Origin: Arenibacter hampyeongensis
GTDB taxonomy: Bacteria; Bacteroidota; Bacteroidia; Flavobacteriales; Flavobacteriaceae
DNA: 64,000 nucleotides
Assembly (NCBI RefSeq): GCF_002909255.1
Contig: NZ_PIOB01000002.1
Span: 248,001 to 312,000 of the forward strand
Direction of reading: 5' to 3'
How positions within the stretch are numbered: position 1 is the first letter of the stretch; every line of letters starts with the position of its first letter. Positions 12,330 through 32,512 of the stretch are shown piece after piece. Under the pieces are notes generated by a model. The model was not told the origin of the DNA. It made no database searches and saw nothing but the letters and a program-made list of their open reading frames with translations. The position numbers were made by a program, and so were the translations under genes.

Positions 12330-14579
12330 TTAATTAATTATGATTTCATCAGCAAATAGCCAGGAAGGAAGACCTGCCGCGTGATGCCAATAGGGTGTTT
12401 CTGTGTTTATAGCCCTTACTTTTATATAACGGGACCTTTTTTCATCAAAATCCAACTTAAAAAATTGGATATCGTTCACTTTGCTGTCTTTGGTCAAGGG
12501 TGTTGGATTATTAACGGTTCCTAAATTGAAGAAATGCTCATTATCCAGAGATCCCGAATAGGCCACTTTAGTTGGAAAAAATACAATGTGATTGGTAACC
12601 TGCAAAAAGGCCAAGGAAATAGTACTTATTTTCATTGGTTCTCCCAAATCCACAACAACTTCCATATCATTGCCCTCATATCCCAACCAATTGGCATAAA
12701 AACTGCTTCCGCCAAGTGCCCCATCCGTTAGGACCATTGGATCTTCCTTGGCATATTTCTTTGGTTGGGTATTAGTGACCACAGCCTTGCCCATGGCCTT
12801 GTTCGGCATCCTAGCTACTTCCAGGGCTGACATATAATTAGCCAGATATTCAGTTACGGTAAAACCCATTTCGTTCATCAATACCACATTGTTCTTAGCA
12901 CAGGTAGCCGTAAAGTTGTCCAATAAGGTGGTTACTAAAGGATTTATACTCTTTTTACCATCGCTAGTGGGAATCAAAAGTCTATATACATCCGTTAACC
13001 GCTTTCTACAAGCTTCCAATACTGCGTAATCTACCCCTAAGCGCGCCATTTTAACACGTGCCGCTATTTCCGGTTTTTTTGCTACCGCCTTTTCGGCCTC
13101 ATTAAAAAGTTGAAAATAATCGTTCAACAACTCAGGATTCAAATAGGAGGTGAATGCCTCGGATGGATCCCCGTATAGGAACAAGAAAAAATCATTATCC
13201 TCCTTTATCTTGGCATGAATTTTAGTTATATATTTCTTTACAAATGGTCCCGCCTCTTCATAATACCCGTTGGTAAAATCGGTCAAGAGGTCATCTATAT
13301 CTTGATCAGGATTCCAAAGGAGTTGGGCAGTAATATAAGATCTAAGTTCAAAAAGTTCACTGGGATTGTTACTGTGCTGTTCAAAAACCCACTTGGCATT
13401 GTTATCCCTAAACAATTCAATATTCGGCTGCAGGGTATAGATATTGGGAAATGGAGCCAAAAAATTGGTGAACTGTGTAGTATAATCCCAAATCCTTATG
13501 TTGTTGGTCAACTTGCCCCATCCCTCTAAATCGTTTGCAAAATCGGTGCATTTCTCTGCAATAGGCGCACTTCTATCGCATTCTATTGAACAAAGTGTAA
13601 TCAATACATTATCCAACGGTTTCGTCTTAGATGGTTTCCGGGTATATTGATAGGCCAAAGTCGAAATAGTCTTGTCCGGAAAAGATGCTGCCACCTCGTT
13701 CACAAACCTTATCATGGTACCTGATGCACTTCCCTCTTCTTGATCTATTTTGCTACAATTGTCGCACTGGCAATGTTGCTGGTTATCATCCTGACTCACC
13801 GATAAAACCTTGGCCTTGGGATATTGTTGAAACAAGGATGCAACGGAATCCTTTACTATTGCCAAGACAGCAGAATTGGTTAAACACAATTGGGTAGGCA
13901 ACCGTTGATCGCCCCTCAAAGCATAATATTCCGGATTGGATTCATAAAATTTTTCTTCAGGCAAAAATTTATGGAAGGTATGTACCCTTGCATTGGGCAC
14001 ATAATTGGGAAAGGATTCATGAGTCACTTTATGCTTATCGGCAAAATCGGCATTATCATAAAACAATTTAGAATGCACCGTTCTTGTGGTTATTGGCGGG
14101 GTATACTCAAAATCTATCCCTGGAAGGTCAATTGTTGGGGAAGTTGGAATTTTCTCAACGCCAGGAGCGTACCATCTACAGCCCAAGTAGCGCTCCAAGA
14201 ATTCATAAACTGCATATTTTGTTGCCTTAGCAGAACCTCCCGAAATTAGAAGGTTATTACTTTTGGTCCTAATGGATATACCATGTAAGTCATGATCCCT
14301 TTCGTAATCGCTCCCCAAGTATATCTTTTTCTTTTCAGCATGTTGGGAAGCTTCATCAACTACATCCAATTTAACTCCACTTATCTCAAATAGATAACTT
14401 TGCAGTATCTCCGCGGATTTATTTAGACTTTCAGTAGCCTGTCCAGTAAGTACTATTTCATAATCCGACTTGCCTTCATGAACCAGTTTTATCCCATCCA
14501 GATTACAGGATGACAGGATCAATAATACGGGCAAGAGTCCTAGAATTCTGAATTTTGTATTTAATATTTTCATCATCAA
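12330..14579 (-). CDS. DUF4838 putative glycosidase lipoprotein with discoidin-like C-terminus
   Basis: Uncharacterised 749-residue lipoprotein with a signal ending SSC (Cys25). An N-terminal region resembling the small domain of alpha-glucuronidases (GH67N-like) runs to about residue 150, followed by a DUF4838 region with a cysteine cluster, CQCDNCSK, around residue 270. Residues from about 610 form an F5/8-type-C (discoidin) module ending SWLFADEIIIN. It lies between GH92 (12 bp upstream) and GH29 (11 bp downstream), so it is almost surely co-transcribed with them and acts on the same glycan at the cell surface. Its catalytic activity is not established; a TIM-barrel glycosidase is the best guess. 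The tail matches those of the GH20 enzyme and of the cytochrome protein at 30455-32512. Confidence 0.85.
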   Translation of the reverse strand: MMMKILNTKFRILGLLPVLLILSSCNLDGIKLVHEGKSDYEIVLTGQATESLNKSAEILQSYLFEISGVKLDVVDEASQHAEKKKIYLGSDYERDHDLHGISIRTKSNNLLISGGSAKATKYAVYEFLERYLGCRWYAPGVEKIPTSPTIDLPGIDFEYTPPITTRTVHSKLFYDNADFADKHKVTHESFPNYVPNARVHTFHKFLPEEKFYESNPEYYALRGDQRLPTQLCLTNSAVLAIVKDSVASLFQQYPKAKVLSVSQDDNQQHCQCDNCSKIDQEEGSASGTMIRFVNEVAASFPDKTISTLAYQYTRKPSKTKPLDNVLITLCSIECDRSAPIAEKCTDFANDLEGWGKLTNNIRIWDYTTQFTNFLAPFPNIYTLQPNIELFRDNNAKWVFEQHSNNPSELFELRSYITAQLLWNPDQDIDDLLTDFTNGYYEEAGPFVKKYITKIHAKIKEDNDFFLFLYGDPSEAFTSYLNPELLNDYFQLFNEAEKAVAKKPEIAARVKMARLGVDYAVLEACRKRLTDVYRLLIPTSDGKKSINPLVTTLLDNFTATCAKNNVVLMNEMGFTVTEYLANYMSALEVARMPNKAMGKAVVTNTQPKKYAKEDPMVLTDGALGGSSFYANWLGYEGNDMEVVVDLGEPMKISTISLAFLQVTNHIVFFPTKVAYSGSLDNEHFFNLGTVNNPTPLTKDSKVNDIQFFKLDFDEKRSRYIKVRAINTETPYWHHAAGLPSWLFADEIIIN

Positions 14580-14591
14580 TTTAATTTAGAC

Positions 14592-16832
14592 CTAGTTGTT
14601 CAATTTAAACTCCAATAATTTACTGTTCACTAATTCTTCATGAGTAATAAAGTAACCTTTATGAGTTTTGCCTTGAATACTTATGTTTTCGATAAACTGG
14701 TTTTCTTCGGAAAAATTGGAAGTAATTGTCAGTTTTTCCTGCTTGTAATAATCGGTATCCAAATGAATGGTTATTTTATTGAATCTGGGTGTTGTGATCG
14801 CATATATAGGATTTGCTGGACTAACGGGGTATATTCCCATCATTGAAAATACGGCCCAAGCGGACATGGTACCCGTATCATCGTTTCCTGGGAGTCCATC
14901 TGGAGCATTCTTGTAATATTTATTGAGCAAATCCGAAACCATTTTTTGGCTTCGTTTTTCTTCGCCTCTCACATAATTGAACAAATATGGATAAGCAATA
15001 TCCGGTTCATTGGCCATATCATATTGTCCCTTGTCAAAAACATCCTGAAGACGACTGGTAAAGGCCTTTGTTCCCCCCATAAGTCTTATTAGTCCTTTGG
15101 TATCGTGAGTAACCATAAAGGAATACTGCCAGGCATTCCCTTCAATAAAACCCAAATTCTTCTCAAAATTAGCTCCTGATTCTGGATTGTAAGGCGTTAA
15201 CCAACTACCATCATCATTTTTTGGTCTTAACAAATTAAATTCCTTATCGAAAAGGTTTCGGTAAGATACCGATCTTTTGGAAAAGCGATTAAAATCCTCT
15301 TTTTTGCCCAAGGCTTTGGCCAACTGGGCAATGGCATAATCCGAAATATTGTATTCCTGAGTGGTGGATACCGAACCGCTATTCGTTGTTTTTGTGGTGA
15401 GATATCCTTTTTCCAAATAATCCTTAAGTCCTGGCCGCAAGGGATTGGCTTCAATCTGATCGGCACTTTTAAGCATAGCGGAATACGCTTTTTCTACATC
15501 AAAATCCTGAATACCCTTCAAATAGGTATCGGCAATTACGATTCCCGCTGGATCGCCTACCATAGTCGTGGTTTCTGTAGCATTTAGTTCCCATTTTGGC
15601 AACCAGCCACTCTCATCATAGATCTGGAGCATACTTTTCACCATATCGGATTGTTGCCGGGGATATACCAAGCTCATAAGTTGGTGCAAATTCCGATACG
15701 TATCCCAAAGAGAAAAAACGGTATACCGGGTATCTTTGGTTTTTAAGGTTTCCCTAGTTTTCATTTTTGGATAGTCCCCATTAATATCGTTTAAGGTACT
15801 GGGATGTATAAGGGTATGGTACAGGGCAGTATAAAACTTGACCTTGTCCTCTTCCTCACCACCTTCTACCTCAATCCTGGATAGATATGTATTCCAGATT
15901 GCTCTGGCCTCTGTCAAGATTTGGTCGAAACTGCGTGTAGTTGTTTCCTTGTTTAAATTTTCACGTGCGTTTTCAATGCTCACATAAGAGACTCCTACTT
16001 TCATTTCTACAACCGTTGGCTCTTTAAATTTGTAGCGCATATAGCCCCCAATACTATCGCCTACAACTTCTTTTGTATAACCAGGCATTATCCGAGTTTT
16101 TCCATTGTAGCCCATCCATTCCCCCTCTGCTCCTTTATAAGTCGTAGGTTTTTTCCAGACTCCAAACTCGTCGGCAGGCGTGGAAAATTGTGCTACAAAA
16201 TATACCGGATAGGCTTCCTCGGGTTTGTAATAACAAAATGAACCTACACTGCGCACACCTTCAATTTCCGTTGGAGAAACAACCCTAATAGTAGCGCCTT
16301 GTTCATTTGTCAATCCTAAACCAAGATTGATCAGTATATTTGCATCCCCTTTAGGAAAGAAATATTTGCTGACCCCTACCCTTGTAGTTGCCGTAGCCTC
16401 CACCTTTATATTGTAGTCATCCAAAGTATTGGAGTAGTACCCAACTTTTGACACCTCATTGGAATAAGTAGTTCCATATTTGAGGTGCTCAACTTCCAAA
16501 TCACCTGTGGTTGGCATGGCCAAAATAACCCCCAACTCCGGGCAGCCTACACCGCTTAAATTAACGTGACTATATCCTGTCAAAAAAGTGTTTTCCTGTA
16601 TATATGGGGTAGATAACCATCGGCTGTCTTTTTCCAGGGGTAAATTTTCAGCCCCAGCCACATTAAAAGGGGAAACACTGACCATGCCTCTGATAGCAAT
16701 CGGGCCTGGATTGGTAGTTCCAAAATTTGAAGTCCCAATAAAGGGGTTCACATAATCTACAGGTTTTTTTTGGGCGGCAACCACAAACGAATAAATACTG
16801 AATACTATTAAAATTTTGTTTTGTAAATTCAT
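14592..16832 (-). CDS. Exo-alpha-mannosidase, glycoside hydrolase family 92
   Basis: Calcium-dependent inverting alpha-mannosidase family, typically acting on alpha-1,2/1,3-linked mannose of N-glycans. The 746 residues begin with a signal peptide (about 1-20). The DYVNPFIGT opening is standard for GH92. The motif EGNAWQYSF (about residue 565) carries the expected acid Glu, and PGNDDTGTMSAWAVFSMMG (about residue 650) carries the expected base Asp. It is the first gene of a three-gene operon with DUF4838 and GH29. Upstream, instead of the next enzyme gene, lies about 900 bp of repeats and a dead DUF559 gene. The family is certain; exact linkage is inferred from family knowledge. Confidence 0.95.
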   Translation of the reverse strand: MNLQNKILIVFSIYSFVVAAQKKPVDYVNPFIGTSNFGTTNPGPIAIRGMVSVSPFNVAGAENLPLEKDSRWLSTPYIQENTFLTGYSHVNLSGVGCPELGVILAMPTTGDLEVEHLKYGTTYSNEVSKVGYYSNTLDDYNIKVEATATTRVGVSKYFFPKGDANILINLGLGLTNEQGATIRVVSPTEIEGVRSVGSFCYYKPEEAYPVYFVAQFSTPADEFGVWKKPTTYKGAEGEWMGYNGKTRIMPGYTKEVVGDSIGGYMRYKFKEPTVVEMKVGVSYVSIENARENLNKETTTRSFDQILTEARAIWNTYLSRIEVEGGEEEDKVKFYTALYHTLIHPSTLNDINGDYPKMKTRETLKTKDTRYTVFSLWDTYRNLHQLMSLVYPRQQSDMVKSMLQIYDESGWLPKWELNATETTTMVGDPAGIVIADTYLKGIQDFDVEKAYSAMLKSADQIEANPLRPGLKDYLEKGYLTTKTTNSGSVSTTQEYNISDYAIAQLAKALGKKEDFNRFSKRSVSYRNLFDKEFNLLRPKNDDGSWLTPYNPESGANFEKNLGFIEGNAWQYSFMVTHDTKGLIRLMGGTKAFTSRLQDVFDKGQYDMANEPDIAYPYLFNYVRGEEKRSQKMVSDLLNKYYKNAPDGLPGNDDTGTMSAWAVFSMMGIYPVSPANPIYAITTPRFNKITIHLDTDYYKQEKLTITSNFSEENQFIENISIQGKTHKGYFITHEELVNSKLLEFKLNN

Positions 16833-17116: not shown

Positions 17117-17499
17117 TTAAATTTTTTCTTCATATTCCTGGATATATGCTTCAATTGCCCTCAACACATTGTCCATATCCTACAATATTTGGTCATCGGT
17201 AAAACGTATAATTTCAATACCCAAGTTATTCATCCTCTCCTCTTTTACAATATCCTTGTCATAAACCTCAACTATACCGTGTGAATAACCGTCAACTTCT
17301 ATTCCCAACATAAGTTCCTGGCAAAAGAAATCCAAAATATAGTGTCTATAGGTTTCTGACGTTGAAAATCATAACCATACATCTGTTCTGATTTCAACTT
17401 TAACCATAGTATTATTTCTGCTTTCGTACTATTATTACGCAAATCACTAGCTAATTCTTTCAACTTAGGATTATAAGGAATGATTTTTCCTTTTTTCAT
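17117..17499 (-). pseudogene. Decayed DUF559 (Vsr/PD-(D/E)XK-like) endonuclease-domain gene
   Basis: The first 55 or so codons (MKKGKIIPYN start; LRNNSTKAEIILW and YGYDFQRQKPID motifs) are typical of small DUF559 proteins, related to very-short-patch-repair endonucleases. Near 17335-17341 the frame is lost. In the next frame the protein continues as DFFCQELMLGIEVDGYSHG, then EERMNNLGIEIIRF, which is the expected catalytic half, up to a stop at 17117-17119. A second lesion is an in-frame TAG at 17180-17182. With one frameshift and one nonsense codon the gene is not functional. It lies between palindromic repeats R4 and R2 and interrupts the glycan locus between the GH20 and GH92 operons. Confidence 0.85.
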
Positions 17500-17739: not shown

Positions 17740-20067
17740 TTACTCCACTACTACCTCATCAACAAACATCCATGAACCACCACCCGAAGGTGAATTGCCT
17801 AAATTTGTTGCTATAACCTTAATATATCTTGCGGTTTGTCCCTCAATTTTTACCTCAAAATCCTTTAATTCCGAACCATTATTAGCCGCATATTCTCTTT
17901 TAACAATAGCCACACTTTTAAAGGTCCTCCCGTCTGTTGACAGCAAAACCTCCACTTGGACAGGAAAGTAGATTCCAGAACCTTGATTTTCCAGGGCTCC
18001 AACAGAGACCTTTTCCAATTCCGTAGGAGACTCCATATCAATTACCAATTCCATATCACCACCTAGCCAGCCCTGCCATTGGCCATCATGAAAATTTTTG
18101 GAACCACGAACTACGTTTACCATCCCCAATTCTTTGGTTCCCTGATAACTGTCGTGGTATTTTTTAATATATGTTACAGGTTTTCCAACAGCTTTATGAT
18201 AGGTAATTGTTTTCTCAAATAAGGCACCTACTGGTTTGTTTTCTTTAAAAACTTGTGCCTTAATGGTGGTCGTCTTTTTGATGTCTATTGGATCAGTGTA
18301 CTTTTCAGAGGCCGAAGTAATATCGCTACCATCCAGGGTAAAGCGAATATCCGAGTCTGGAAATTCCGATTTAAGCTCCATCGAAATAGCTGCACTTTCT
18401 GGATCCACCGAAGTTTCAGTTGATACTTGATAGGCACTTTTGGCGTAATTAATCCCCATTATTCCATATCTTTCGAATAAGCTGCCTACCCTATTTGAAA
18501 AATCGTCCCAATTTCTATTTGCCTTACTGCTCCAAACCGATTCGGCCAAGGCGGCCAAACGTGGATAGGTCATATACTCCGCTTGGGCATTGGTAGGGAT
18601 ATACTCCGTCCATAAATTAGCCTGTCCACCTAAAACATGACTAGCTTGCTCAACCGTCATTTCGTCCACTACAGGATCAAATTGATACACCTTGCTTAGC
18701 GGTAAATTACCGCCCCAAGCCAAGGGTTCAACATCTTGGTCTCCTTGGTAATAATCAAAATAACAATGTGAATTTGGACTCATAACTACATCGTGACCGG
18801 CCTCAGAAGCTTCCATTCCACCTTTTACACCTCGCCAACTCATGACGGTTGCCCCAGAAGCCAAACCACCCTCCAATATTTCATCCCAACCCAATAAAAT
18901 TCTTCCCTTGGAACTTAAAAATCGTTCCATACGCTGAATAAAGTAGCTTTGAAGTTCCTCAACATTGGCCAAACCTTCATTTGTAACTCTTTTTTGGCAA
19001 TCAGTGCATATCTTCCAGTTGGTCTTTGTAGCCTCATCGCCACCTACATGAATATATTGGGATGGAAACAATTCCATAACCTCCAATAAAACGTTCTCCA
19101 AAAACTCGAAAGTCGAATCCTTGCCAGCACAATATATTTCAGTTATGGGCCATACCCCTCCAGAAGGTACCATGATCGGTTTTTGAAAACATGATAATTC
19201 AGGGTATGCCGCTATAGCACTCATTACATGCGCCGGCATTTCTATTTCCGGAACCACAGTAACTCCCCTACTGCCAGCATAAGCTACAATTTCCTTAATA
19301 TCCTCTTGGGTATAAAACCCACCATAAGTAGTCTCTGTTCCCAAATCCGGAGTAGGTCTTGCATTCCAAGGCATGTCTTCTTGATCAACCCTAAAACCAC
19401 CTACTTCCGTTAATTTTGGGTATTTTTTTATTTCTATTCTCCAACCTTGATCATCTACCAAATGCAAGTGTAGGGTGTTCATTTTCAAAAGTGCCAATTG
19501 ATCTATAGTGGCCAGAACATAATCCTTATCGAAAAAATGTCTGGCAACATCCAGCATATAACCACGCCATTTAAATCGAGGGCTATCTTTAATCTCCACA
19601 TTGGGAACATCCCAATCTACCTTATTGACCACCTCCTTGCTTTCTATTGCTACCGGAAGCAACTGCCTTATAGTTTCCAATCCATATAAAAAACCACTAT
19701 AGCCATTAGCAGTTACATTGACATAATTTTCCGTCACCGTTAAGGTATATTCCTCGTCTTTGAGGCTAGAATCCAATAACAATTGAACATAATTTTTGTT
19801 GGGAACTGCGGACACCACCTCCATGTTCCATCCGGCAGCTACGGTAAATTTATCCTGCAATACCTTTAGAACCTCCACCTGATTCTTTGGTGACACCAAT
19901 TTGGTATCCTTGTTAAAGCGAAAAGCACCTTGGCTAAATTTCATTTCCAAAGGCTTGGGAACGATATTTATATCATTTTCCGTAAAAATGGTTCTACTTT
20001 CCTCTCCACACCCTACTAGGACAACTAGCAGAATCGCACTAAAGCTTTGAATTATTGTCTTTTTCAT
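17740..20067 (-). CDS. Beta-N-acetylhexosaminidase, glycoside hydrolase family 20
   Basis: Lipid-anchored enzyme releasing terminal beta-GlcNAc or GalNAc. The frame is open to 20103, but the ATG at 20067 is preferred because it gives a standard signal (MKKTIIQS...) with lipobox LVGC (Cys20). Domains in order: GH20 N-terminal domain (about 35-160); catalytic barrel with HLHLVDDQGW and the HVGGDEA signature, whose Asp344-Glu345 pair binds the substrate acetamido group and protonates the bond; a hexosaminidase-C segment (about 560-635); and a discoidin-like module ending SWMFVDEVVVE. It is the last gene of the symporter-GH130-CBM9-GH20 operon (58 bp after CBM9). The family is certain. Confidence 0.95.
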   Translation of the reverse strand: MKKTIIQSFSAILLVVLVGCGEESRTIFTENDINIVPKPLEMKFSQGAFRFNKDTKLVSPKNQVEVLKVLQDKFTVAAGWNMEVVSAVPNKNYVQLLLDSSLKDEEYTLTVTENYVNVTANGYSGFLYGLETIRQLLPVAIESKEVVNKVDWDVPNVEIKDSPRFKWRGYMLDVARHFFDKDYVLATIDQLALLKMNTLHLHLVDDQGWRIEIKKYPKLTEVGGFRVDQEDMPWNARPTPDLGTETTYGGFYTQEDIKEIVAYAGSRGVTVVPEIEMPAHVMSAIAAYPELSCFQKPIMVPSGGVWPITEIYCAGKDSTFEFLENVLLEVMELFPSQYIHVGGDEATKTNWKICTDCQKRVTNEGLANVEELQSYFIQRMERFLSSKGRILLGWDEILEGGLASGATVMSWRGVKGGMEASEAGHDVVMSPNSHCYFDYYQGDQDVEPLAWGGNLPLSKVYQFDPVVDEMTVEQASHVLGGQANLWTEYIPTNAQAEYMTYPRLAALAESVWSSKANRNWDDFSNRVGSLFERYGIMGINYAKSAYQVSTETSVDPESAAISMELKSEFPDSDIRFTLDGSDITSASEKYTDPIDIKKTTTIKAQVFKENKPVGALFEKTITYHKAVGKPVTYIKKYHDSYQGTKELGMVNVVRGSKNFHDGQWQGWLGGDMELVIDMESPTELEKVSVGALENQGSGIYFPVQVEVLLSTDGRTFKSVAIVKREYAANNGSELKDFEVKIEGQTARYIKVIATNLGNSPSGGGSWMFVDEVVVE

Positions 20068-20125
20068 TTTACTCCCTTTATACATTTCCATTGACCACCC
20101 CAAAATTTTGTTTGATCACATCATT

Positions 20126-21193
20126 TTATTCATCAACACTTCTAAATTCGCCATCCTCACTTATCTTCAATATCTTTCCGGTAAATGGACTTTTAACCCA
20201 AATATTATAACCAAATTTATGTTTGTCCAAATTGGGTTTTATAGACTTGCCCAAAATATTCTTAGGAGCTGCCACTTGCTTTTCGGCATCCTTTTTCCCT
20301 TGCAAAACTCCTCTGTACAGGGAATACAAATGCCATTTTATATGATCGTCCTGCGGAATTGAAAAACTATCCTTTCCGCCTGCTACTTCTGATGAAAAGT
20401 AAACATAGCCCCAATGCTCCGGCTCATGCATGTTAATAACTCCCTGGGGAGACCACACCCAATTATACTCCGGAAGGAACTTGCCCTTATCATCCTTTTT
20501 TCTGGAATACCTCCCATCCGTTAAATCGAAATTCCAGTTGACCCTAGAAAAATTAATCCTCCAAAAATCGTTCTGCGGCACATCATTACCATTGCTTGCT
20601 TCCGTAATCACCTTCCACGGAATAGCTATTTCAACTGTCCATCCTTTGTCCATATCGGAGGAATCATTTAATGTACCATCGATACTTACCGCTGATTTTA
20701 CACCTTGAATATCCCAACTGTCGATCACTTTTCCATGATTCCTATACGGCTTGGTAAGAAACAGGTCCCAAAGTGTATTATGGGCATTCATTTCGTATTC
20801 GTAATAGTTATGTGTATCGCCATCGGGGTCTATGAAAATTTCAAAATCATTGTTATAAAAAATAACGGTATCCCTTTGTTTTAAGGTGGCCCACACATGT
20901 GGCTCATCCATTTCCGCCATCACATATAGGTAATCGTTATCCCATAACATTTTCATCCTGGTCTTATGTTTAGGCGTCATTTTACCCTCGATATCAATAT
21001 AATTTTGGGACCAGGCGGCCTTTTGCCATGAAGCGTCATCTCCTTTTCCATCTATAACCAAGGTTTCATTCGCCTTAAAAGCGATATAGTTCCTAGGTAC
21101 TAACTCTTGAGCCTTTAATATGGTAGTGCCTATGGATAAAAGCAAAAGCACCAATGACCAGATTCTGGTTTGGTTGGAATAAGTGGTTTTCAT
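20126..21193 (-). CDS. Carbohydrate-binding family 9-like exported protein
   Basis: A 355-residue secreted protein with a signal peptide (about 1-29, ending LKAQ). The body is a DOMON/CBM9-like beta-sandwich with the family hallmarks: DGKGDDASWQKA near 48-59, WDNDYLYVMAEMDEPHVWA, DFEIFIDPDGDTHNYYEYE and WTVEIAIPW. Such proteins occur widely in Bacteroidota glycan loci and may bind sugars or assist partner enzymes; no catalytic role is known. It is co-oriented with GH130 upstream (56 bp) and GH20 downstream (58 bp). The last 60 residues are basic and have no recognised domain. The domain call is good; the ligand is unknown. Confidence 0.85.
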   Translation of the reverse strand: MKTTYSNQTRIWSLVLLLLSIGTTILKAQELVPRNYIAFKANETLVIDGKGDDASWQKAAWSQNYIDIEGKMTPKHKTRMKMLWDNDYLYVMAEMDEPHVWATLKQRDTVIFYNNDFEIFIDPDGDTHNYYEYEMNAHNTLWDLFLTKPYRNHGKVIDSWDIQGVKSAVSIDGTLNDSSDMDKGWTVEIAIPWKVITEASNGNDVPQNDFWRINFSRVNWNFDLTDGRYSRKKDDKGKFLPEYNWVWSPQGVINMHEPEHWGYVYFSSEVAGGKDSFSIPQDDHIKWHLYSLYRGVLQGKKDAEKQVAAPKNILGKSIKPNLDKHKFGYNIWVKSPFTGKILKISEDGEFRSVDE

Positions 21194-21249
21194 ATTTTAG
21201 TTTTTATAGTTTCTAATCAACATTAAATTTACCCTCGGAAAATCTGGAA

Positions 21250-22215
21250 CTATAAACTATTCTCCTTGGTAAATTTTACAATTTCGGATATACGTCCAAA
21301 TGCCAAACCGGTAACCGTATCGGCCGCCCCATAATAAATGGCAACCTTGTCTTCCTCAACAGAATGTAGCGCAGCGCATGGAAATACTACATTTGGTACA
21401 TCGCCCACACATTCATAATTGGTCTGTGGGGACAATAAATAAGGTTTCGTCCTATATAATACTTGATCCGGCCTTTCTTTATCCAAAATAGCCGCTCCCA
21501 TGGAATATCTAAACCCGTTACAGGTATTTATGACCCCATGGTAAAATGTTAACCACCCCTCATCTGTAAGTATAGGAATGGGTCCTGCTCCAATTTTGGT
21601 ACACTGCCACGCACTATCCACAAATGGTGTGACCTTCATAACACATCTATGTTCTCCCCAGAACTTCATATCCGGACTAAAGCTAATGTAGATATCACCA
21701 AAAGGTGTATGCCCGTTGTCACTTGGCCTGCTTAGCATAGCATATTTCCCATCAATTTTTTCAGGAAACAACACCCCATTTCTATTAAAAGGTAAAAAAG
21801 CATTTTCACATTGAAAAAATTCCTTGAAATCAAAGGTATATCCTATTCCAATAGTTGGACCATTATACCCATTACACCAGGTAATCCAGTATCTATCCTC
21901 TATAAAGACAACCCTAGGGTCATATTTATAGTCGGATTCGATCATATCGGTATTACCGGCCTGGAATTGAATGGGGTCATGATTAATATCCCAATCTATA
22001 CCATTATTGCTAAAACCGGCAAAAATATTCATTTGAACCGCCTTATTATCACAGCGAAATACCCCGGCAAACCCGTCTTGAAATGGTACTACGGCACTAT
22101 TAAAAATACTGTTGGAAGAAGGTATTGCATCCCTCTTTACCACAGGGTTCTCTGAATATCTCCAAACTACATCTGCACTATTGGAAGGCCTTTCTTGCCA
22201 TGGAATGTTACTCAC
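21250..22215 (-). CDS. GH130-family beta-1,4-mannosyl phosphorylase/hydrolase
   Basis: Five-bladed-propeller enzyme of glycoside hydrolase family 130, 321 residues, with no signal peptide, so cytoplasmic. The YDPRV motif (98-102) contains the conserved Asp99 expected to act as proton donor. Further propeller signatures are [11 protein letters not shown] and VFPCAALH. Characterised relatives phosphorolyse beta-1,4-mannosyl bonds, including Man-beta-1,4-GlcNAc from the N-glycan core. Within this locus, that disaccharide is what would remain after fucosidase, mannosidase and hexosaminidase action, and it could enter through the symporter encoded 87 bp upstream. The family is secure; phosphorylase versus hydrolase and exact substrate are inferred. 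Confidence 0.9.
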
Positions 22216-22302
22216 TTTATATTGATTTAAATATTATAACTAATCTTATTTCACTCTAATGTAATCTATCTATTACTTAGTTCTAGGAACTAGTCAATTT
22301 TT

Positions 22303-24489: not shown

Positions 24490-25572
24490 ATGCAAATTAA
24501 TAAGTTGAATCATAAATTACTTGGTAGAAATGGCTCTGGCGATTTCAATATCAACTACAAGCACCATATCATTTTTTGGGTAGTCTATATCCTATTTAAT
24601 ATTTTCCGTTGGGGAAATTTACATCAGGATTTTGCCTATTCCATAAAAACCAATCTATTGGGATTCCCCATACACATGGCCCTGGCATACTTCAATATTT
24701 ATTTCTTAATGCCAAAATTTGTTTACACCAAACGATATTTTTCTTACACCGTTTTATTGCTTGCTACATTATTTGTTGGACTTATTGTAAAATTCAACCT
24801 TACCTATTATTTGGTCAGCAATAATGTAATGCCTGAGGCTGGGGACGTTGAAAGCCTCACTTTAAATTATGCCATAGTAACTATGTTGGGAGAACTTTAT
24901 GTAATGTCTTTTGTAACAGCTATAAAAATTACGGTGGATTGGCTAAATGAAAACAGTAAATTGCATGAACTGGAAAAAAGGCAATTGACAACGGAATTGA
25001 AATTCCTTAGATCCCAAGTAAGTCCACATTTCTTCTTTAACACACTAAATAATATATATTCCCTAACTTTAGAAAAATCGGACCGTGCTCCGGAAATTGT
25101 ACTTAGATTATCCGAATTAATGCGTTACTTGCTATATGCAACGGACAAACCCTATCAAGAATTGACAAAAGAAATTGAATGCATTCAAAATTATATCGAT
25201 TTGGAACGTATTCGATTCGACAATTCCTTAAAAATTGATGTGAATATTTCAGGGGATATTGAAGAAAAAAAAATTGCCCCTATGCTTTTAATGCCTTTTA
25301 TTGAAAATTGCTTTAAACATGGTGCCGGTAAAAATATTGGCAAAATGTACATTAAAATACACTTGGAGGTAATTGATGATATGTTGAATTTTGAGGTGAG
25401 CAATAACCTACCACCAAATACACCGCGAAATAAATTAAATAAAACGGATTATGGAATTGGACTTTCCAATGTAAAAAAACGCTTGGAATTGGGATATGAA
25501 CCGGAAGATTATAATCTTTCTATATTTGAAAAAGATAAAATGTTTAATGTTATTCTTAAATTAAAGGTGTAA
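24490..25572 (+). CDS. LytS-type sensor histidine kinase
   Basis: Membrane sensor kinase of 360 residues. Four hydrophobic segments lie within residues 27-155, followed by a short coiled linker. The His_kinase domain has the phospho-acceptor His180 in QVSPHFFFNTLNN and an ATPase part with PFIENCFKHG and GIGLSNVKKRL. No extracytoplasmic sensor domain is present. The stop codon overlaps the start of the LytTR regulator (ATGA-type junction at 25572), so the two form a two-component pair. It lies beside the glycan locus, divergent from it, and may regulate it; that is inferred from position only. Confidence 0.93.
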   Translation: MQINKLNHKLLGRNGSGDFNINYKHHIIFWVVYILFNIFRWGNLHQDFAYSIKTNLLGFPIHMALAYFNIYFLMPKFVYTKRYFSYTVLLLATLFVGLIVKFNLTYYLVSNNVMPEAGDVESLTLNYAIVTMLGELYVMSFVTAIKITVDWLNENSKLHELEKRQLTTELKFLRSQVSPHFFFNTLNNIYSLTLEKSDRAPEIVLRLSELMRYLLYATDKPYQELTKEIECIQNYIDLERIRFDNSLKIDVNISGDIEEKKIAPMLLMPFIENCFKHGAGKNIGKMYIKIHLEVIDDMLNFEVSNNLPPNTPRNKLNKTDYGIGLSNVKKRLELGYEPEDYNLSIFEKDKMFNVILKLKV

Positions 25573-26288
25573 TGAGTTTTAAGGTAATAATAATTGACGA
25601 TGAACCACTGGCAATAAATATATTAAAAAACTACGTAGAGCAGATTAAAGAATTGGTACTGGTACAAACCTTTACCAACGCCATTGATGCTTCCACTTTT
25701 TTACAGAGAAATGAGGTAGACATTATATTTTTGGATATCAATATGCCCATCATGAATGGTCTGGACCTCCTCGGCAGTATTAATTCAAAGGCCATGGTGG
25801 TAATGACGACGGCCCATGAGGATTATGCACTGAAAAGTTTTGAATTGGAAGCCATAGATTATTTGGTAAAACCAATACCTTTTCACAGATTTTTAAAAAC
25901 AGTCCACAGAATAATAAATTTAAAGGAAGGATTTTCTAAAAAAGAAACACAGAACACCAATGAAAATCAAAGTATTTTTGTAAAGGTTGATAAGAAAAAA
26001 TTACAAAAAATTTACTTGGATGACATAATCGTTATAGAAAGCTTAAAGGACTACATCCGAATAAAGACTAAAGCCAACAAATATGTTATTCATAGAACAT
26101 TGAGCAGTTTTACTGAAGAACTACCATCGGATAAATTCATTAGAATTCATAGGTCTTATACCATAGCAATTGATAAAATAGAAGCTATTGAAGGTAACAG
26201 TTTGGAAGTGCAAGGTATTAGATACACCATTGGTCGCAGTTATCTAAACGAGGTTAAGAGTAAAATTCTTGATGAGAATCTTGAATAA
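25572..26288 (+). CDS. LytTR-family response regulator
   Basis: A 238-residue DNA-binding response regulator. The receiver domain (1-120) has acidic pair Asp9-Asp10, phospho-acceptor Asp55 in IIFLDINMP and Lys in the VKPIPF segment. The LytTR DNA-binding domain (about 138-235) shows DIIVIESLKDYIRIKT and FIRIHRSYTIAIDKI. It starts inside the last base of the LytS gene, so the pair is translationally coupled. Targets cannot be read from the sequence. Adjacent candidates are the divergent symporter-GH130-CBM9-GH20 operon and the cytochrome/DUF1501 module starting 130 bp downstream. Confidence 0.94.
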   Translation: MSFKVIIIDDEPLAINILKNYVEQIKELVLVQTFTNAIDASTFLQRNEVDIIFLDINMPIMNGLDLLGSINSKAMVVMTTAHEDYALKSFELEAIDYLVKPIPFHRFLKTVHRIINLKEGFSKKETQNTNENQSIFVKVDKKKLQKIYLDDIIVIESLKDYIRIKTKANKYVIHRTLSSFTEELPSDKFIRIHRSYTIAIDKIEAIEGNSLEVQGIRYTIGRSYLNEVKSKILDENLE

Positions 26289-26418: not shown

Positions 26419-28791
26419 ATGTCTATCAAACCACTAAATTATTGCTATCCACATTACCAAACAGGGTCTTGTGTACTTTTGGTATTAATTCTCTCCATAA
26501 TCACCTTAGGTTGTAATACCGGAGTACAAACCTCGGAAACATTAACCAGCAATGAATTTAAAGGGAAGGTTCCCGACAAAATCGACTTTACTTTTGACGT
26601 AAAACCAATATTATCTGACCGATGCTTCAAATGCCATGGACCGGATAAAAATGCTATTGAGGGCGGACTTTCTCTGAACACCGCCGAAGATGCTTATACC
26701 GCATTGGGGAAAAATAAAGACCACTACGCCATTGTACCTGGTGATGTAAAAAAAAGTGAATTGGTTAATCGCATATACACCAAGGACGAATCTTTAATGA
26801 TGCCACCACCCGAATCCAACCTGGAGCTTAGTGAATATGAAAAGGAGATTCTAAAAAAATGGATAGACCAAGGCGCTGAATTTAAAACCCATTGGGCATT
26901 TATTGCTCCTGAAACACCCAAAGTGCCTAAAACGAATAACACAACTTGGGTTCAAAATGAAATTGACCAATTTGTATTATCCAAACTGGAACAAAATGGA
27001 TTGGAACCCAATGAAAAGGCCTCAAAAGAAAAGTTATTGCGTCGTGTATCTTATGACCTTACAGGATTACCTCCTAGCGTGGAACAGATTGAAGCTTTCG
27101 TAAAAAATGATTCACCTTCAGCCTACGAAATAATAATAGACTCCCTTTTAAATACCGTAGACTACGCAGAGCATATGTCCTCAGAATGGATGGATATTGC
27201 CCGCTATGCGGACACCCACGGATACCAAGATGATTTTGAACGTATCATGTGGCCTTGGCGGGATTGGGTTATTCACGCCTTTAAGAAAAACTTGCCCTAT
27301 GATCAATTTATCACCTATCAATTGGCTGGAGATTTAATGCCCAATGCAAATGCAGAACATATTCTGGCGACCGGGTTCAATAGAAACCACAAGATCACCT
27401 TTGAAGGAGGGGTTATTCCGGAGGAATATCGAATTGAGTATGTAGAGGACCGGGCAGTAACCTTTGGTACGGCTTTTCTTGGTCTTACTTTTGAATGTGC
27501 CCGTTGCCATGACCATAAATATGATCCCATAAGTCAGAAAAACCACTTTGAATTGTTTAGTTTCTTCAACAATATAGATGAACTGGGATTGACACCTGGG
27601 GGTGCCGGGAAAATTCCAAAACCCTATATGACCATAACGGAAAAGGAAAAAAATGGCGTATTGAGTTTTGTACAACTTCAAAAAACAAGCATGAAGGAAG
27701 TTCCTGTCATGGTAATGAACGAGATGCAGGAAATAAGGCCTTCGTATATACTCAACAGGGGCGTCTATGATCAACCCACAACACAGGTGTATCCCAACAC
27801 GCCGGAGTCCATACTCCCTTTCCCGGAAGACTATCCCAAAAATAGATTGGGACTGGCCAAATGGTTGTTCCATGAGGACAATCCCTTGACCGCCAGGGTT
27901 ACTGTAAACAGGTTCTGGCAACGTATGTTCGGCAGTGGCTTGGTGGCTTCTTCCTTCGATTTCGGTAATCAGGGATCACTTCCAACACATCCTGAATTGT
28001 TGGATTTTCTAGCCATAAAATTTAGGGATGAAGGCTGGGATACAAGAAAGATTTTAAAGTATATAGCACTTTCTGCAACCTATCAACAAAGCACCAAAGT
28101 TTCCAAGGAATTACAAGAATTAGATCCTGAAAACCGCCTTTTGGCACGTGCCCCAAGATTAAGGCTCACGGCAGAATTAATAAGGGACCAGGCACTTAAA
28201 ATAAGTGGATTGCTCAACAAGGAAGTAGGAGGACCAAGTGTTAAACCCTATCAGCCAGATGGCATTTGGGAAGCTACCACAGGTGGTGGTGGTGGTAGTA
28301 CGGCCACATACATTACCAGTACCGGGAAAGATCTTTATAGAAAAAGTTTGTACACCTTTTGGAAGAGAACGGTTCCTCCTCCCAGCATGATGACTTTTGA
28401 TGCCGCATCCAGAGACCTTTGTTCCGTAAAGCGTCAGGAGACCAATACTCCTTTACAGGCCTTGGTACTACTTAACGACCCCCAAATTATTGAGGCTTCG
28501 AGAATAATTGCAAGAAATGCCATTGATCGCAATAAAGAAACCCATGATCAGATTAGGTACATTTTTAAGCAAGCAACCTCCAGAGACCCAGATCAGGAGG
28601 AATTGACCATGTTGAGCGATTATTACACCAGTATGCTCCAAAAAGTTGAGGGAGAAGGAATAGAGGCCCAGGAATACTTGTCCATTGGAGCCACTGAAAG
28701 GGATAAAAACATTTCAGAATCCCAATTGGCAGCTTTGGCTTTAACCGCACACACCATTTTAAACTTGGACGAAACTATAACAAGAGGCTAA
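26419..28791 (+). CDS. Planctomycete-type cytochrome C / DUF1549 / DUF1553 lipoprotein
   Basis: A 790-residue exported lipoprotein with signal ending TLGC (Cys32). A single-haem PSC1-type cytochrome domain follows, with the CFKCH haem motif at 69-73 and MPPP near the end of the domain (a possible axial Met). Next come DUF1549 (about 155-360; RRVSYDLTGLPPS, MDIARYADTHGYQ, TFECARCHDHKYDP) and DUF1553 (about 480-740; LTARVTVNRFWQRMFG, RQETNTPLQALVLLNDP). A second CxxCH (ARCHD) sits in DUF1549. The architecture is abundant in Planctomycetes; its function is unknown. It is translationally adjacent to the DUF1501 gene (2 bp gap). A redox role at the cell surface or periplasm is inferred. Confidence 0.9.
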   Translation: MSIKPLNYCYPHYQTGSCVLLVLILSIITLGCNTGVQTSETLTSNEFKGKVPDKIDFTFDVKPILSDRCFKCHGPDKNAIEGGLSLNTAEDAYTALGKNKDHYAIVPGDVKKSELVNRIYTKDESLMMPPPESNLELSEYEKEILKKWIDQGAEFKTHWAFIAPETPKVPKTNNTTWVQNEIDQFVLSKLEQNGLEPNEKASKEKLLRRVSYDLTGLPPSVEQIEAFVKNDSPSAYEIIIDSLLNTVDYAEHMSSEWMDIARYADTHGYQDDFERIMWPWRDWVIHAFKKNLPYDQFITYQLAGDLMPNANAEHILATGFNRNHKITFEGGVIPEEYRIEYVEDRAVTFGTAFLGLTFECARCHDHKYDPISQKNHFELFSFFNNIDELGLTPGGAGKIPKPYMTITEKEKNGVLSFVQLQKTSMKEVPVMVMNEMQEIRPSYILNRGVYDQPTTQVYPNTPESILPFPEDYPKNRLGLAKWLFHEDNPLTARVTVNRFWQRMFGSGLVASSFDFGNQGSLPTHPELLDFLAIKFRDEGWDTRKILKYIALSATYQQSTKVSKELQELDPENRLLARAPRLRLTAELIRDQALKISGLLNKEVGGPSVKPYQPDGIWEATTGGGGGSTATYITSTGKDLYRKSLYTFWKRTVPPPSMMTFDAASRDLCSVKRQETNTPLQALVLLNDPQIIEASRIIARNAIDRNKETHDQIRYIFKQATSRDPDQEELTMLSDYYTSMLQKVEGEGIEAQEYLSIGATERDKNISESQLAALALTAHTILNLDETITRG

Positions 28792-28793
28792 AT

Positions 28794-30287
28794 ATGAGTG
28801 AGAAAAAAATAATAGAGGAAAGGTCGCTTATATTAAATCGACGGTCATTTTTAGGCAAAACTGCTCTTGGCGTAGGTGGTGTTGCTTTGGCATCCTTATT
28901 GGGCGCCAACCTTTTTAGAAAAGATAAAAATGGTATTTTAACCAAGGATGATAGTCTAAATGGGGTAAAGGGAATTTTAAATTCACTTCATCATCCCGCT
29001 AAAATTAAAAGGGTTATATATCTGTTTCAAAGTGGAGGTCCATCGCAACTTGAACTTTTTGACTACAAGCCTTTATTGAACCAAAGACGTGGTGAGGATC
29101 TTCCGGAATCCATTAGGAACGGCCAACGGCTTACAGGCATGACCGCAGGACAGGACAAATTCCCTTTGGTCGGTTCCCAATTCAAGTTTAATCAACACGG
29201 CAAGAACGGCACATATATAAGTGAACTACTTCCTTACACGGCCAAAATGGTGGATGAACTGTGCATCATAAAATCCATGTATACAGAAGCCATCAACCAT
29301 GACCCAGCCGTTACATTTTTCCAAACAGGTTCCCAGCAACCTGGAAGACCCAGCATAGGATCTTGGTTAAGTTATGGTTTGGGCAGCGAAAACGAAAACC
29401 TTCCTGCATTTACCGTGCTATTGTCACGCGGAACCGGCAGACCCAATGGACAACCATTATACACCAGATTATGGGGCAATGGATTTTTACATTCCCTACA
29501 CCAAGGAGTGCAATTTAGGGCCGCCAAAGATCCTGTATTGTATTTAAATGACCCCAAGGGCATTACCAAGGAGGTTAAACGGGAAATGCTGGATAATTTG
29601 GCTGCCTTGAACGATAAGCATTACCAAGAATCCGGTGATCCAGAAATTAAAAGCAGGATTGCACAGTATGAAATGGCATATAGGATGCAAACCTCTGTCC
29701 CCAATGTAATGGACACAACCAAGGAACCCGACTATATCTATGAAATGTACGGTCCCGAAGCCAAAATTCCGGGCACTTATGCAGCAAATTGCCTTTTGGC
29801 AAGAAGATTGGCAGAACAGGACGTACGTTTTATCCAATTATATCATATGGGGTGGGATCAACACGATAATCTTCCAGGAGCCATTGCAAAACAAGCCAAA
29901 GACGTAGACCAAGCCTCTGCAGCCCTAGTGGCAGATCTTAAACAAAGAGGCTTATTGGAAGACACCCTAGTGATTTGGGGAGGAGAATTTGGAAGGACCA
30001 ATTATTCCCAAGGCCTTTTAACCGAAACCAGTTACGGAAGGGACCATCATCCAAGGTCTTTCACTATTTGGATGGCAGGCGGTGGCATTAAGCCGGGCAT
30101 GGTTTATGGGGAAACGGATGATTTTGGATATAATATTGTTAAAGATCCTGTCCATGTCCATGATTTCCAGGCTACAATGCTTCATTTACTGGGCATAGAC
30201 CATGAAAAGTTAATCTATAAGTATCAGGGAAGAAGGTTTAGATTAACAGATGTTGAGGGACATATTATAAAGGATATTTTGACTTAA
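28794..30287 (+). CDS. DUF1501 family protein, Tat-exported
   Basis: A 497-residue protein of the DUF1501 family, which has a sulfatase/alkaline-phosphatase-like fold; the reaction is unknown. A twin-arginine signal, NRRSFLG at 15-21 followed by a hydrophobic stretch, predicts export in folded form with a cofactor or metal. Family motifs include YLFQSGGPSQLELFDYKP, INHDPAVTFFQTGSQQPGRPS, HMGWDQHDNLP, GGEFGRT and GRDHHPRSFTIWMAGGG. It follows the DUF1549/DUF1553 gene by 2 bp, the standard pairing of these families, and is followed by a relic of a discoidin-like tail. The family call is strong; function is undetermined. Confidence 0.93.
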   Translation: MSEKKIIEERSLILNRRSFLGKTALGVGGVALASLLGANLFRKDKNGILTKDDSLNGVKGILNSLHHPAKIKRVIYLFQSGGPSQLELFDYKPLLNQRRGEDLPESIRNGQRLTGMTAGQDKFPLVGSQFKFNQHGKNGTYISELLPYTAKMVDELCIIKSMYTEAINHDPAVTFFQTGSQQPGRPSIGSWLSYGLGSENENLPAFTVLLSRGTGRPNGQPLYTRLWGNGFLHSLHQGVQFRAAKDPVLYLNDPKGITKEVKREMLDNLAALNDKHYQESGDPEIKSRIAQYEMAYRMQTSVPNVMDTTKEPDYIYEMYGPEAKIPGTYAANCLLARRLAEQDVRFIQLYHMGWDQHDNLPGAIAKQAKDVDQASAALVADLKQRGLLEDTLVIWGGEFGRTNYSQGLLTETSYGRDHHPRSFTIWMAGGGIKPGMVYGETDDFGYNIVKDPVHVHDFQATMLHLLGIDHEKLIYKYQGRRFRLTDVEGHIIKDILT

Positions 30288-30299
30288 ATAAAAATTTAA

Positions 30300-30453: not shown

Positions 30454-30454
30454 A

Positions 30455-32512
30455 ATGATGCTACAGATTATAGACATTGGGCGCCTACACCCCCTATTGG
30501 TACATTTGCCCATTGGCATACTTGTATTGGCCTTTTTGATGGAACTTTACCATAGAAAGAAAGCTTCTGGCACCGAATACAAGTTAATCACATTTACCCT
30601 TGCCATAGCAGCCCTAACAACAGTTTTATCTGTTGGCAGTGGTTGGTTATTGGGAGAAGATGGGGGTTATGATGAGACCTTATTGTTTAGACATCGCTGG
30701 ATGGCGGTAGGCTTGGCTATAGGTGCTACATTACTGTTTCTCATTAAAAAATATCCTAGATCCTGGTCCAAAACCGTTTATTTGCCTCTTTTTATCGCAG
30801 TAATGGGACTCTTGAGTTTAACCGGTCATTTTGGGGGCAGTATGACCCATGGCGAAGACTATCTTTTCAATACTGATCAAACCAAAAAACCAGTAATTAC
30901 CGATGTTGACAAGGCGCTTGTTTTCAACGATATTGTAAAGCCCATTCTGGATGATAAGTGTGTAAGTTGCCACAACCCCAATAAAATTAAGGGAGGTTTA
31001 ATAATGACCAACAAAAATCAACTCCTTAATGGCGGAGACTCCGGAAGTATTTTTTTGGCCGAAGAGGGAGAACTTCCAGCTTTGATACATCATATTAAAC
31101 TACCAATGGAAGACGAGGTACATATGCCGCCAAAGGGTAAGGTACAACTCACTAACCATGAAATAGAATTATTGGAATGGTGGATCGGTCATGAAAATTG
31201 CTTTGATTGCGTTGCTGGAACATTGGACAAAACAGAAAAAATCAGTGCTATTTTAAGCTCATTGGAAGAGGATACATCCACAAGGGCCCTTATTGCAAAA
31301 GAAGTGGAAATGGTACCTGAAGAATGGCTGGCCTCCATAAACCTAAATGGCCCAGTGGTTACAAAATTATCAGCAAAAAATCCGCTATTGATAGTAAATT
31401 TGTCCGGAATCAAAGATTTAGGAAAAAGTAATCTCAAGGCCCTAAAAAAGCATGCCGAAAATATTGTTGAACTCAATTTGGCCAACTCCAATTTTAGTGA
31501 CACGATTTCTTCGTATTTAACTTCCTTTAAAAATCTTACAAAACTACAATTACAAAATACTGTAATTACGGATAAGTCCATGGAAACTTTGAGTGATCTA
31601 AAACACTTGGAGTCCCTGAATATATACGGTACCGAAATTTCCGATAAGGGTCTGGAAAAATTAACCTCTCTTTCCGGTTTAAAAACTTTATATCCATGGA
31701 ATTCCAAAATCAGCAAGGAAGCTTTAGATGTTTATAGCAGTAATTATCCCCAAGTCACGGTCGTAAGTTTGGATGAAGACCTCTTTACTCCGTCCAGCCT
31801 GGATCCGCCGTCCATAATTGCCGATACAGACTTTTTTACGGATTCCATAGAAATTACATTGGATTATTTTTTTAAGGGAGTGGACATCTATTACACCTTG
31901 GATGGTACTGAACCCGACACCACCTCCACTAAATACAACAAACCCATTTTACTCAACAACTCTACCGAAATTAAGGCGGTAAGCCATAAACCGGGTTGGG
32001 AATTAAGTAATGTAAAAACAGTAAGTTTTAAAAAATCGAACATTCTTCCCAGTTCCATAACCCTGAACAATAAACCAAACGACAAATACAAGGGAAATGG
32101 AGGAAATACCTTGATCGATCTAAAAAGGGGAACTATTAATTTTGTTGATGGGAATTGGATCGGTTATGAAGGCAGCAGTTTTGCCGCCATCTTAAAACTC
32201 AAAAAAGAAGAATTGATTTCTACGGTGTCCGTAGGAGCATTTTCTTCACCTGAGAAATGGATTTTCTTTCCTACGGGATTCAAGGTATGGGTATCACAGG
32301 ATGGAAGCAATTTTAAACTTGTTCATACCGAAAAAATAAAAGCTGAACGCCCTAATTCAGATACCAAATTTAAATTTTTCGACCTTAATATACCACCAAC
32401 GAAATCCAATTTCGTAAAAGTAGAAGTAATGAGTCAACTTACGAATCCTTCCTGGCATCCCAACCCAGGAGGCAAAAGTTGGTTATTTGTAGATGAGATA
32501 GTACTTAACTAA
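30455..32512 (+). CDS. DUF2231 membrane / cytochrome C / leucine-rich-repeat protein with glycosidase-type tail
   Basis: A 685-residue mosaic. An N-terminal DUF2231-like region with four membrane segments (about 10-130, LHPLLVHLPIG motif) is followed by a planctomycete-type cytochrome domain (haem motif CVSCH at 169-173; HMPPKGK as possible axial Met). Leucine-rich-like repeats follow (about 300-425), then a chitobiase/hexosaminidase-C-like segment (YYTLDGTEPD, about 470-520) and a discoidin-like module ending SWLFVDEIVLN. The last two modules are the same pair, in the same order, as in the GH20 enzyme of this locus. It probably anchors a c-type haem at the membrane while the tail meets glycan; this is inference. 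Confidence 0.85.
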   Translation: MMLQIIDIGRLHPLLVHLPIGILVLAFLMELYHRKKASGTEYKLITFTLAIAALTTVLSVGSGWLLGEDGGYDETLLFRHRWMAVGLAIGATLLFLIKKYPRSWSKTVYLPLFIAVMGLLSLTGHFGGSMTHGEDYLFNTDQTKKPVITDVDKALVFNDIVKPILDDKCVSCHNPNKIKGGLIMTNKNQLLNGGDSGSIFLAEEGELPALIHHIKLPMEDEVHMPPKGKVQLTNHEIELLEWWIGHENCFDCVAGTLDKTEKISAILSSLEEDTSTRALIAKEVEMVPEEWLASINLNGPVVTKLSAKNPLLIVNLSGIKDLGKSNLKALKKHAENIVELNLANSNFSDTISSYLTSFKNLTKLQLQNTVITDKSMETLSDLKHLESLNIYGTEISDKGLEKLTSLSGLKTLYPWNSKISKEALDVYSSNYPQVTVVSLDEDLFTPSSLDPPSIIADTDFFTDSIEITLDYFFKGVDIYYTLDGTEPDTTSTKYNKPILLNNSTEIKAVSHKPGWELSNVKTVSFKKSNILPSSITLNNKPNDKYKGNGGNTLIDLKRGTINFVDGNWIGYEGSSFAAILKLKKEELISTVSVGAFSSPEKWIFFPTGFKVWVSQDGSNFKLVHTEKIKAERPNSDTKFKFFDLNIPPTKSNFVKVEVMSQLTNPSWHPNPGGKSWLFVDEIVLN

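Follow-up and report, generated by a model that had tools for sequence, protein, structure and literature searches.

Gene content of the locus

The window analyzed here, a stretch of 64,000 nucleotides from Arenibacter hampyeongensis (contig NZ_PIOB01000002.1, positions 248,001 to 312,000 of the forward strand), encodes a c-type cytochrome, designated CYT, with a discoidin-like C-terminal tail that also closes two glycan enzymes of the same locus. Genes of glycoside hydrolase (GH) families GH163, GH20, GH92, GH130, and GH29 lie together on the minus strand according to Pfam, whereas the domains PSCyt1, PSCyt2, PSD1, DUF1501, and DUF2231, by which a redox cassette was recognized, occur in adjacent genes of the plus strand (Table 1). 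DUF4838 is equated with GH163 in a table of PMC9870897, and GH163, GH20, GH92, and GH130 all feature in the accessible part of a review of N-glycan breakdown (PMC10154615). Since DUF4838 corresponds to GH163, the minus-strand gene set looks like an N-glycan locus, with a predicted role in N-glycan utilization. Beyond these glycan genes, the open reading frames (ORFs) at 1323-10417 are, by the look of their sequences, presumably SusC/SusD-like. All three tail-bearing ORFs listed in the first-pass annotation of the window, which was made from the sequence alone, are present, except that the GH20 frame extends to 20103, the previously assumed boundary at 20067 being an internal ATG.

Table 1. Genes and domains of the putative N-glycan locus and the adjoining redox cassette (positions in the window; aa, amino acids)
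Feature	Position	Strand	Evidence
GH29 alpha-L-fucosidase	10834..12318	-	Pfam
DUF4838 (GH163) protein with lipobox and tail (~12333-12800)	12330..14579	-	ORF, Pfam, blastp
GH92, without tail here; putative N-glycan locus	14592..16832	-	Pfam, tail-profile search
GH20 beta-hexosaminidase with lipobox and tail (~17743-18198); CHB_HEX segment ~18211-18390	17740..20103	-	ORF, Pfam, blastp
CBM9-like protein, GH130 phosphorylase, SSF transporter	20126..24180	-	Pfam
LytS-type histidine kinase and LytTR response regulator, directly upstream of cassette	24490..26288	+	
PSCyt1-PSCyt2-PSD1 protein; CXXCH at 69 and 360; linker 88 aa, no module insert	26419..28791	+	Pfam
DUF1501 protein with Tat signal, cassette partner	28794..30287	+	Pfam, NCBIfam scan
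DUF2231-PSCyt1-LRR-CHB_HEX-F5/8C cytochrome (CYT), 685 aa	30455..32512	+	Pfam, AF2 model
CYT DUF2231 membrane domain, aa 11-131, four helices	30485..30847	+	Pfam, model, conservation
CYT PSCyt1 c-haem domain, aa 169-228, CVSCH 169-173, M224	30959..31138	+	Pfam, conservation
CYT CHB_HEX_C_1/Fn3_assoc segment, aa 461-523	31835..32023	+	Pfam
CYT F5/8C (CBM32-like) tail, aa 530-685	32042..32512	+	Pfam, blastp, profile, Foldseek

A common C-terminal module in three proteins

The first-pass annotation assigned the C-terminal ends of CYT (SWLFVDEIVLN), the GH20 enzyme (SWMFVDEVVVE), and the DUF4838 protein (SWLFADEIIIN) to one discoidin-like module, and this assignment is borne out. Pairwise blastp, run with dbsize 5e6, aligned the tails of CYT and GH20 (31% over 242 aa, E 1.6e-26), CYT and DUF4838 (31% over 158 aa, E 2.6e-13), and GH20 and DUF4838 (30% over 163 aa, E 4e-13), while the Pfam family F5_F8_type_C (PF00754) was matched at or above its cut-off of 28.2 bits in all three proteins (28.5, 31.3, and 28.2 bits for CYT, GH20, and DUF4838, respectively). 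Judged by these alignments, the three C-termini are homologous and represent a single F5/8C or CBM32-like module; the possibility of three unrelated tails is ruled out by the blastp homology. As was also proposed, a hexosaminidase-C-like segment (CHB_HEX_C_1/Fn3_assoc) precedes the module in CYT and GH20; Pfam detects none in the DUF4838 protein. The closing motif coincides with the module's final beta strand (residues 676-684 of the CYT model) and is, for this reason, largely a signature of the fold.

The tail of CYT, the one modelled of the three, adopts a beta-sandwich fold in the AF2 model of the whole protein (pLDDT 90.1, pTM 0.46). At E <= 0.01 the tail has a single solved relative by sequence, namely the C-terminus of the Bacteroides thetaiotaomicron GH20 enzyme BT0459 (PDB 6q63), which has the same two-domain organization as CYT: residues 464-685 of CYT align to residues 555-774 of BT0459 (E 3e-27). 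The BT0459 module closes with LFVDEITIN and likewise contains an E-W-H loop. In BT0459 the module ends a hydrolase, whereas in Arenibacter it also ends a membrane cytochrome. A search of solved proteins with the full-length cytochrome additionally yields leucine-rich repeat (LRR) proteins, and the top Foldseek match of the CYT model is again 6q63 (E 5e-22), with multi-domain glycosidases, CBM32 modules, and discoidin domains ranking below it. The likeness to CBM32 is one of fold, several CBM32 structures being among the Foldseek matches; sequence-profile matches to solved CBM32 modules (E 0.2-0.6) are not significant.

The tail profile matches four places in the 5.43-Mb genome at E <= 0.01, namely the three window copies and one GH20 paralog, whereas PF00754 matches six places on five ORFs and misses the DUF4838 tail at the threshold used. 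With four tail-profile places, three of them in the locus, the possibility of a module widespread on random proteins in the genome, which the first-pass annotation had named as a threat to its reading, is ruled out.

Carriers of the tail in other genomes

In a sample of 149 Flavobacteriaceae genomes, one per genus, the tail was found in 64 genomes at E <= 1e-12. From the loci fetched, 123 distinct tails at E <= 1e-8 were classified by the preceding domain; the profile was seeded with these same carrier classes, and more divergent tails may escape it. The carriers comprise GH20 (50 tails), GH92 (40), cytochromes (13), DUF4838 (8), stand-alone lipoproteins (7), sulfatases (3), and two other proteins, of which one is a GH2 by Pfam and the second has CBM_4_9 besides F5/8C and nothing more. 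The tail is thus located on glycosidases or sulfatases in 102 cases and on members of the redox cassette in 20, a distribution that supports its classification as chiefly a glycan-enzyme module. In an extended set of 140 tails, including 17 from the wider phylum, 131 stop exactly at the C-terminus of the protein.

On the tree of these 140 tails, grouping follows mainly the carrier family and not the locus. The CYT tail belongs to a cytochrome-only set of seven (support 100/98), two of which come from a different family within the class, whereas the window GH20 and DUF4838 tails fall into a GH20-only set of 18 (100/100) and a DUF4838-only set of six (97/95), respectively. The seven carrier classes require 15 changes on this tree, compared with a least possible number of 6 and a shuffled mean of 75.2; the cytochrome tails taken alone require four, and the classes are strongly clustered, yet not perfect clades. 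A recent acquisition of the CYT tail from the neighboring GH20 gene by recombination might be suggested by the order of CHB_HEX and F5/8C common to both proteins. Such a local exchange is rejected by the separate carrier-only sets, and we regard it as extremely improbable.

A tryptophan-histidine (W-H) pair in one loop is present in most tails of cytochromes (23/28), GH92 (38/40), DUF4838 (7/8), and stand-alone lipoproteins (8/9), whereas only 2 of 50 GH20 tails and none of the three sulfatase tails possess it; the window GH20 lacks it. If this loop makes contacts, the tails of the window GH20 and the cytochrome do not bind alike, which speaks against the same ligand for all three proteins, as implied by the first-pass annotation.

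Pairs of tail-bearing GH20 and GH92 genes, approximately 5 kb apart on opposite strands, were observed in several Flavobacteriaceae (loci L177, L179, L184, and L188; genomes G009, G069, G062, and G057). These genomes have no cytochrome of the CYT family among the matches at E <= 1e-20.

Architecture and partners of the cytochrome

The N-terminal region of CYT has a hydrophobic composition and forms four helices in the model (residues 12-35, 39-67, 74-99, and 105-131). Residues C169, C172, H173, and M224, as well as H12, H17, and H80, are conserved in all 63 cytochrome cores compared, H125 in 62 of them, and H132 in 60. The CXXCH motif at position 169 and M224 are predicted to bind one c-type haem with His/Met ligation. 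Attachment of c-type haem occurs outside the cytoplasm, so the haem domain that follows helix 4 should be located there. Counting the helices back from this domain places the five histidines at the periplasmic side, where they might form a b-haem or metal site. The prediction for CYT is thereby a membrane protein of four helices whose haem lies in the periplasm.

The PSD1 protein, with two CXXCH motifs, looks by eye like a candidate lipoprotein, and the cassette as a whole is most likely periplasmic and membrane-bound. The AF2 model of the PSD1 protein (pLDDT 79.5, pTM 0.84) possibly represents an unsolved fold, and phmmer finds no solved relative of the PSD1 or DUF1501 proteins at E <= 0.01. 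The genome contains nine full-length PSD1 matches, and hence several PSCyt/PSD1/DUF1501 cassettes. In addition, a single protein of 947 aa, encoded elsewhere in the genome, joins both haem partners (DUF2231-PSCyt1-PSCyt2-PSD1; L017:3782-6625, contig C24); given this natural fusion, a module on either partner could serve the same complex. The gene downstream of the fusion has a start resembling that of a Tat-signal protein, and other genera have ORFs of comparable length that match this cytochrome region as well.

Full-length CYT relatives, 78-93% identical in the best segment, are present in seven Arenibacter records, and the gene order GH130-SSF-LytSR-PSD1-DUF1501-cytochrome-YeeE is conserved in seven other Arenibacter genomes. 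The first-pass annotation pointed to other Bacteroidota as a place to look for tailed DUF2231 cytochromes. Long cytochromes of tail-bearing length occur in 16 of the 149 Flavobacteriaceae genomes (two without and two with a weak tail-profile match) and, beyond this family, in at least 14 more genomes of a 395-genome sample of the phylum, in which few candidates were scored per genome, so that the counts from that sample are lower bounds.

The module occupies one of two positions

Comparison of 83 cassettes revealed a module inserted in the PSD1 protein in 44 of them, a tail on the cytochrome in 29, and neither in 10. Seven further Arenibacter loci, being near-copies, were left out of this count, as were six cytochromes without a PSD1 gene in range and one row of 789 aa (L247) that is the PSD1 protein itself. 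Tail-less cytochromes mostly have a longer PSD1 protein as their neighbor, in which PSCyt2 and PSD1 are separated by 243-459 aa. A tail was scored here for any cytochrome longer than 600 aa, the insert being ignored, and the absence of inserts from tail cassettes is deduced from their PSCyt2-PSD1 linkers, which measure 84-90 aa throughout. The tail-profile match is weak in two of the 29 tail rows (G129 and G001) and missing in two others (G002 and G051), and one cassette scored as having neither module (L270) has a linker of 169 aa. With respect to their families, 22 of the 44 inserts match Laminin_G_3 and seven match CBM_6, while six other families have one member each. In relatives of the window cassette, the tail seems to substitute for another kind of module, often of a sugar-binding type, on the partner of the haem protein.

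In a tree of concatenated cassette proteins (quick method, LG+G4), the tail rows and 9 of the 10 rows with neither module form one 38-row set (SH-aLRT 100). The exclusivity would thus apparently reflect one ancient switch and one later loss, retained across six families of the class. When the tree is built from the cytochrome core only, monophyly of the tail-bearing rows is rejected (AU p = 0.002), because a tail-less set lies among them, which we read as the loss.

Other components differ among the tail cassettes: 17 of the 29 encode an NHL propeller of about 345 aa, and eight encode a stand-alone tail lipoprotein alongside the cytochrome, whereas the Arenibacter cassettes have neither gene. 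The propeller, which bears a Tat-like signal, is found between the DUF1501 and cytochrome genes in many cassettes (L059:18155-19189 and counterparts).

Neighborhood of the tail cassettes

Genes for GH20, GH92, GH130, or DUF4838 proteins were found within 9.5 kb of the cytochrome in 9 of the 29 tail cassettes and in none of the 44 insert cassettes or the 10 with neither module; some loci in this comparison end early at contig ends. In the window genome, the GH130 gene falls within this distance and the GH20 gene starts 10.4 kb away. The nine cassettes represent about four lineages of the cassette tree (G000/G032; G006/G115/G021; G139; and L245/L248/L249). GH29 genes were near 3/29 tail vs. 0/44 insert cassettes (p 0.06), and no difference was seen for sulfatase genes (2/29 vs. 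4/44) or SusC/D genes (2/29 tail, 5/44 insert, and 2/10 with neither module).

An ordinary PSCyt cassette could have come to lie beside a polysaccharide utilization locus by chance, given that several such cassettes exist in the genome and that 20 of the 29 tail cassettes have no gene of the four families within 9.5 kb. We consider this improbable, because only tail cassettes among the 83 possess these neighbors, and they do so in about four lineages.

The first-pass annotation offered another explanation, in which the redox module and the glycan enzymes of the locus carry one tail for a common surface target or sorting partner. Three of the four tail copies of the genome do lie in this locus, and tail cassettes are in excess near GH20, GH92, GH130, and GH163 genes. 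A shared surface target is made unlikely, however, by the four-helix and presumably periplasm-facing CYT, and the tail of the window GH20 enzyme is without the W-H loop that those of CYT and the GH163 protein retain. As for a sorting tag, no model matched at E <= 0.01 in NCBIfam, which we take to hold sorting C-domain models. Since, furthermore, the tails cluster mainly by carrier and most tail cassettes stand apart from such genes, the locus-specific link is not upheld, and the explanation as a whole seems hardly likely. What survives of the earlier proposal is a more general connection of the redox module with glycans, suggested by the carriers of the tail and by the neighbors of the tail cassettes.

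A proposed glycan-directed redox cassette

The reading that we favor, at about even chances, is that of a periplasmic redox cassette in which the CHB_HEX and F5/8C tail serves as a glycan-recognition module. The cassette would consist of the PSCyt1-PSCyt2-PSD1 lipoprotein, the Tat-exported DUF1501 protein, and the DUF2231-cytochrome-LRR protein, to which relatives often add the NHL propeller and the stand-alone tail lipoprotein. The CYT tail is of the same CBM32-like family as the ends of GH20, GH92, and GH163 enzymes. Wherever one of the compared Bacteroidota cassettes has a module, it is located either within the PSD1 protein or at the end of the cytochrome, in no case at both sites, and the tail cassettes are partly sited beside N-glycan-type genes, as in the window. 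The tail may keep the cassette, itself anchored in the membrane, attached to a glycan fragment or a glycopeptide that has been imported, so that the haem-bearing PSCyt-PSD1 protein, together with the DUF1501 protein, could act on a sugar or its substituent; electrons would then pass from the c-type haem of the cytochrome to the histidine site on the periplasmic face of the membrane domain, and from there to the respiratory chain. The computed basis of this reading is formed by the tail homology, the exclusivity of the module, the neighborhood excess, the conserved CXXCH/Met and histidine residues, and the natural fusion of the haem partners; from these we infer the periplasmic location, glycan binding, substrate, oxidation, and electron route.

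Several observations weigh against it. The tail-less cytochromes compared are a selection from the Flavobacteriaceae and phylum listings, and because the tail rows and the rows with neither module fall into one set, the exclusivity amounts to one switch and one loss and not to 83 independent facts. Ten of the 83 cassettes have neither module, which is therefore not obligatory; at least 15 of the 44 inserts are without a match to Laminin_G_3 or CBM_6, and Laminin_G_3 domains are not solely sugar-binding. The Fisher p of 1e-4 for neighbors of the four families in tail versus insert cassettes is uncorrected for relatedness and was obtained with the window's own enzymes as references; 20 of the 29 tail cassettes have no such neighbor, and for three of the remaining nine (L245, L248, and L249) the neighbor is a GH20 protein without this tail. 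Finally, Foldseek found no match for the PSD1-protein model in the PDB at E <= 0.001.

The tail might instead be a structural or protein-protein module, i.e., a C-terminal cap that binds a partner or another carrier and no glycan. This alternative draws on the placement of part of the conserved residue set in the last strand, the non-significant sequence matches to solved CBM32 modules, and the stand-alone tail lipoprotein that accompanies the cytochrome in eight tail cassettes, as well as on a published figure legend, in which F5_F8_type_C domains of PSCyt proteins are classed as protein-protein interaction domains (He et al., 2017; PMC5615132). Nonetheless, the tails are almost wholly on glycan enzymes, sugar-bound CBM32 structures are among the Foldseek matches, and the other module of the sister cassettes is often Laminin_G_3 or CBM_6. 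We therefore regard a purely structural role as possible, although rather unlikely.

The closest published counterpart of a glycan-directed cassette comes from freshwater Verrucomicrobia, where PSCyt genes also encoding carbohydrate-binding modules (CBMs) or F5_F8_type_C domains were described, often near sulfatase genes and with products predicted to be periplasmic or cytoplasmic (He et al., 2017). Planctomycete-type cytochromes are likewise joined there to carbohydrate-type modules, and the accessible text states that nothing is known of PSCyt and PSD functions; it names no DUF2231 partner, two-place exclusivity, or tail shared with N-glycan enzymes. The link between haem proteins and such modules, which the first-pass annotation did not know to be described, is thus partly on record, whereas the architecture of CYT is not given in that text. 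Titles and abstract openings of the papers found for PSCyt, DUF1501, DUF1553, DUF1549, and DUF2231 give no function and mention no tail on a DUF2231 partner, two-place exclusivity, or tail shared with GH92 and GH163. Similarly, N-glycan breakdown in Bacteroides and others shares GH20, GH92, GH130, and GH163 with the window, and the accessible part of its review (PMC10154615) makes no mention of a redox cassette.

A broader and more doubtful generalization, which we put forward tentatively, is that Bacteroidota, and the PVC group too, to judge from the published PSCyt proteins, modify glycans oxidatively via a large family of periplasmic haem cassettes, each aimed by a swappable glycan-recognition module, and that the tailed version would be the electron-transfer arm of N-glycan breakdown. 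The position of a module on one partner or the other, with the version resembling N-glycan enzymes partly near GH20, GH92, GH130, and GH163 genes, yields a concrete prediction of the substrate of the cassette. Such cassettes occur in several copies in the window genome, and PSCyt/PSD proteins are also present in Verrucomicrobia; the module makes the function of the cassettes directly testable.

Other features of the window

The cassette is followed by two YeeE/YedE-type sulfur-transport genes (Sulf_transp and DUF6691; 32605-33717, plus strand), which are kept in seven other Arenibacter genomes. Between the genes for GH92 and GH20 lie two out-of-frame pieces of a DUF559 gene (17180-17499, minus strand), apparently a broken remnant.

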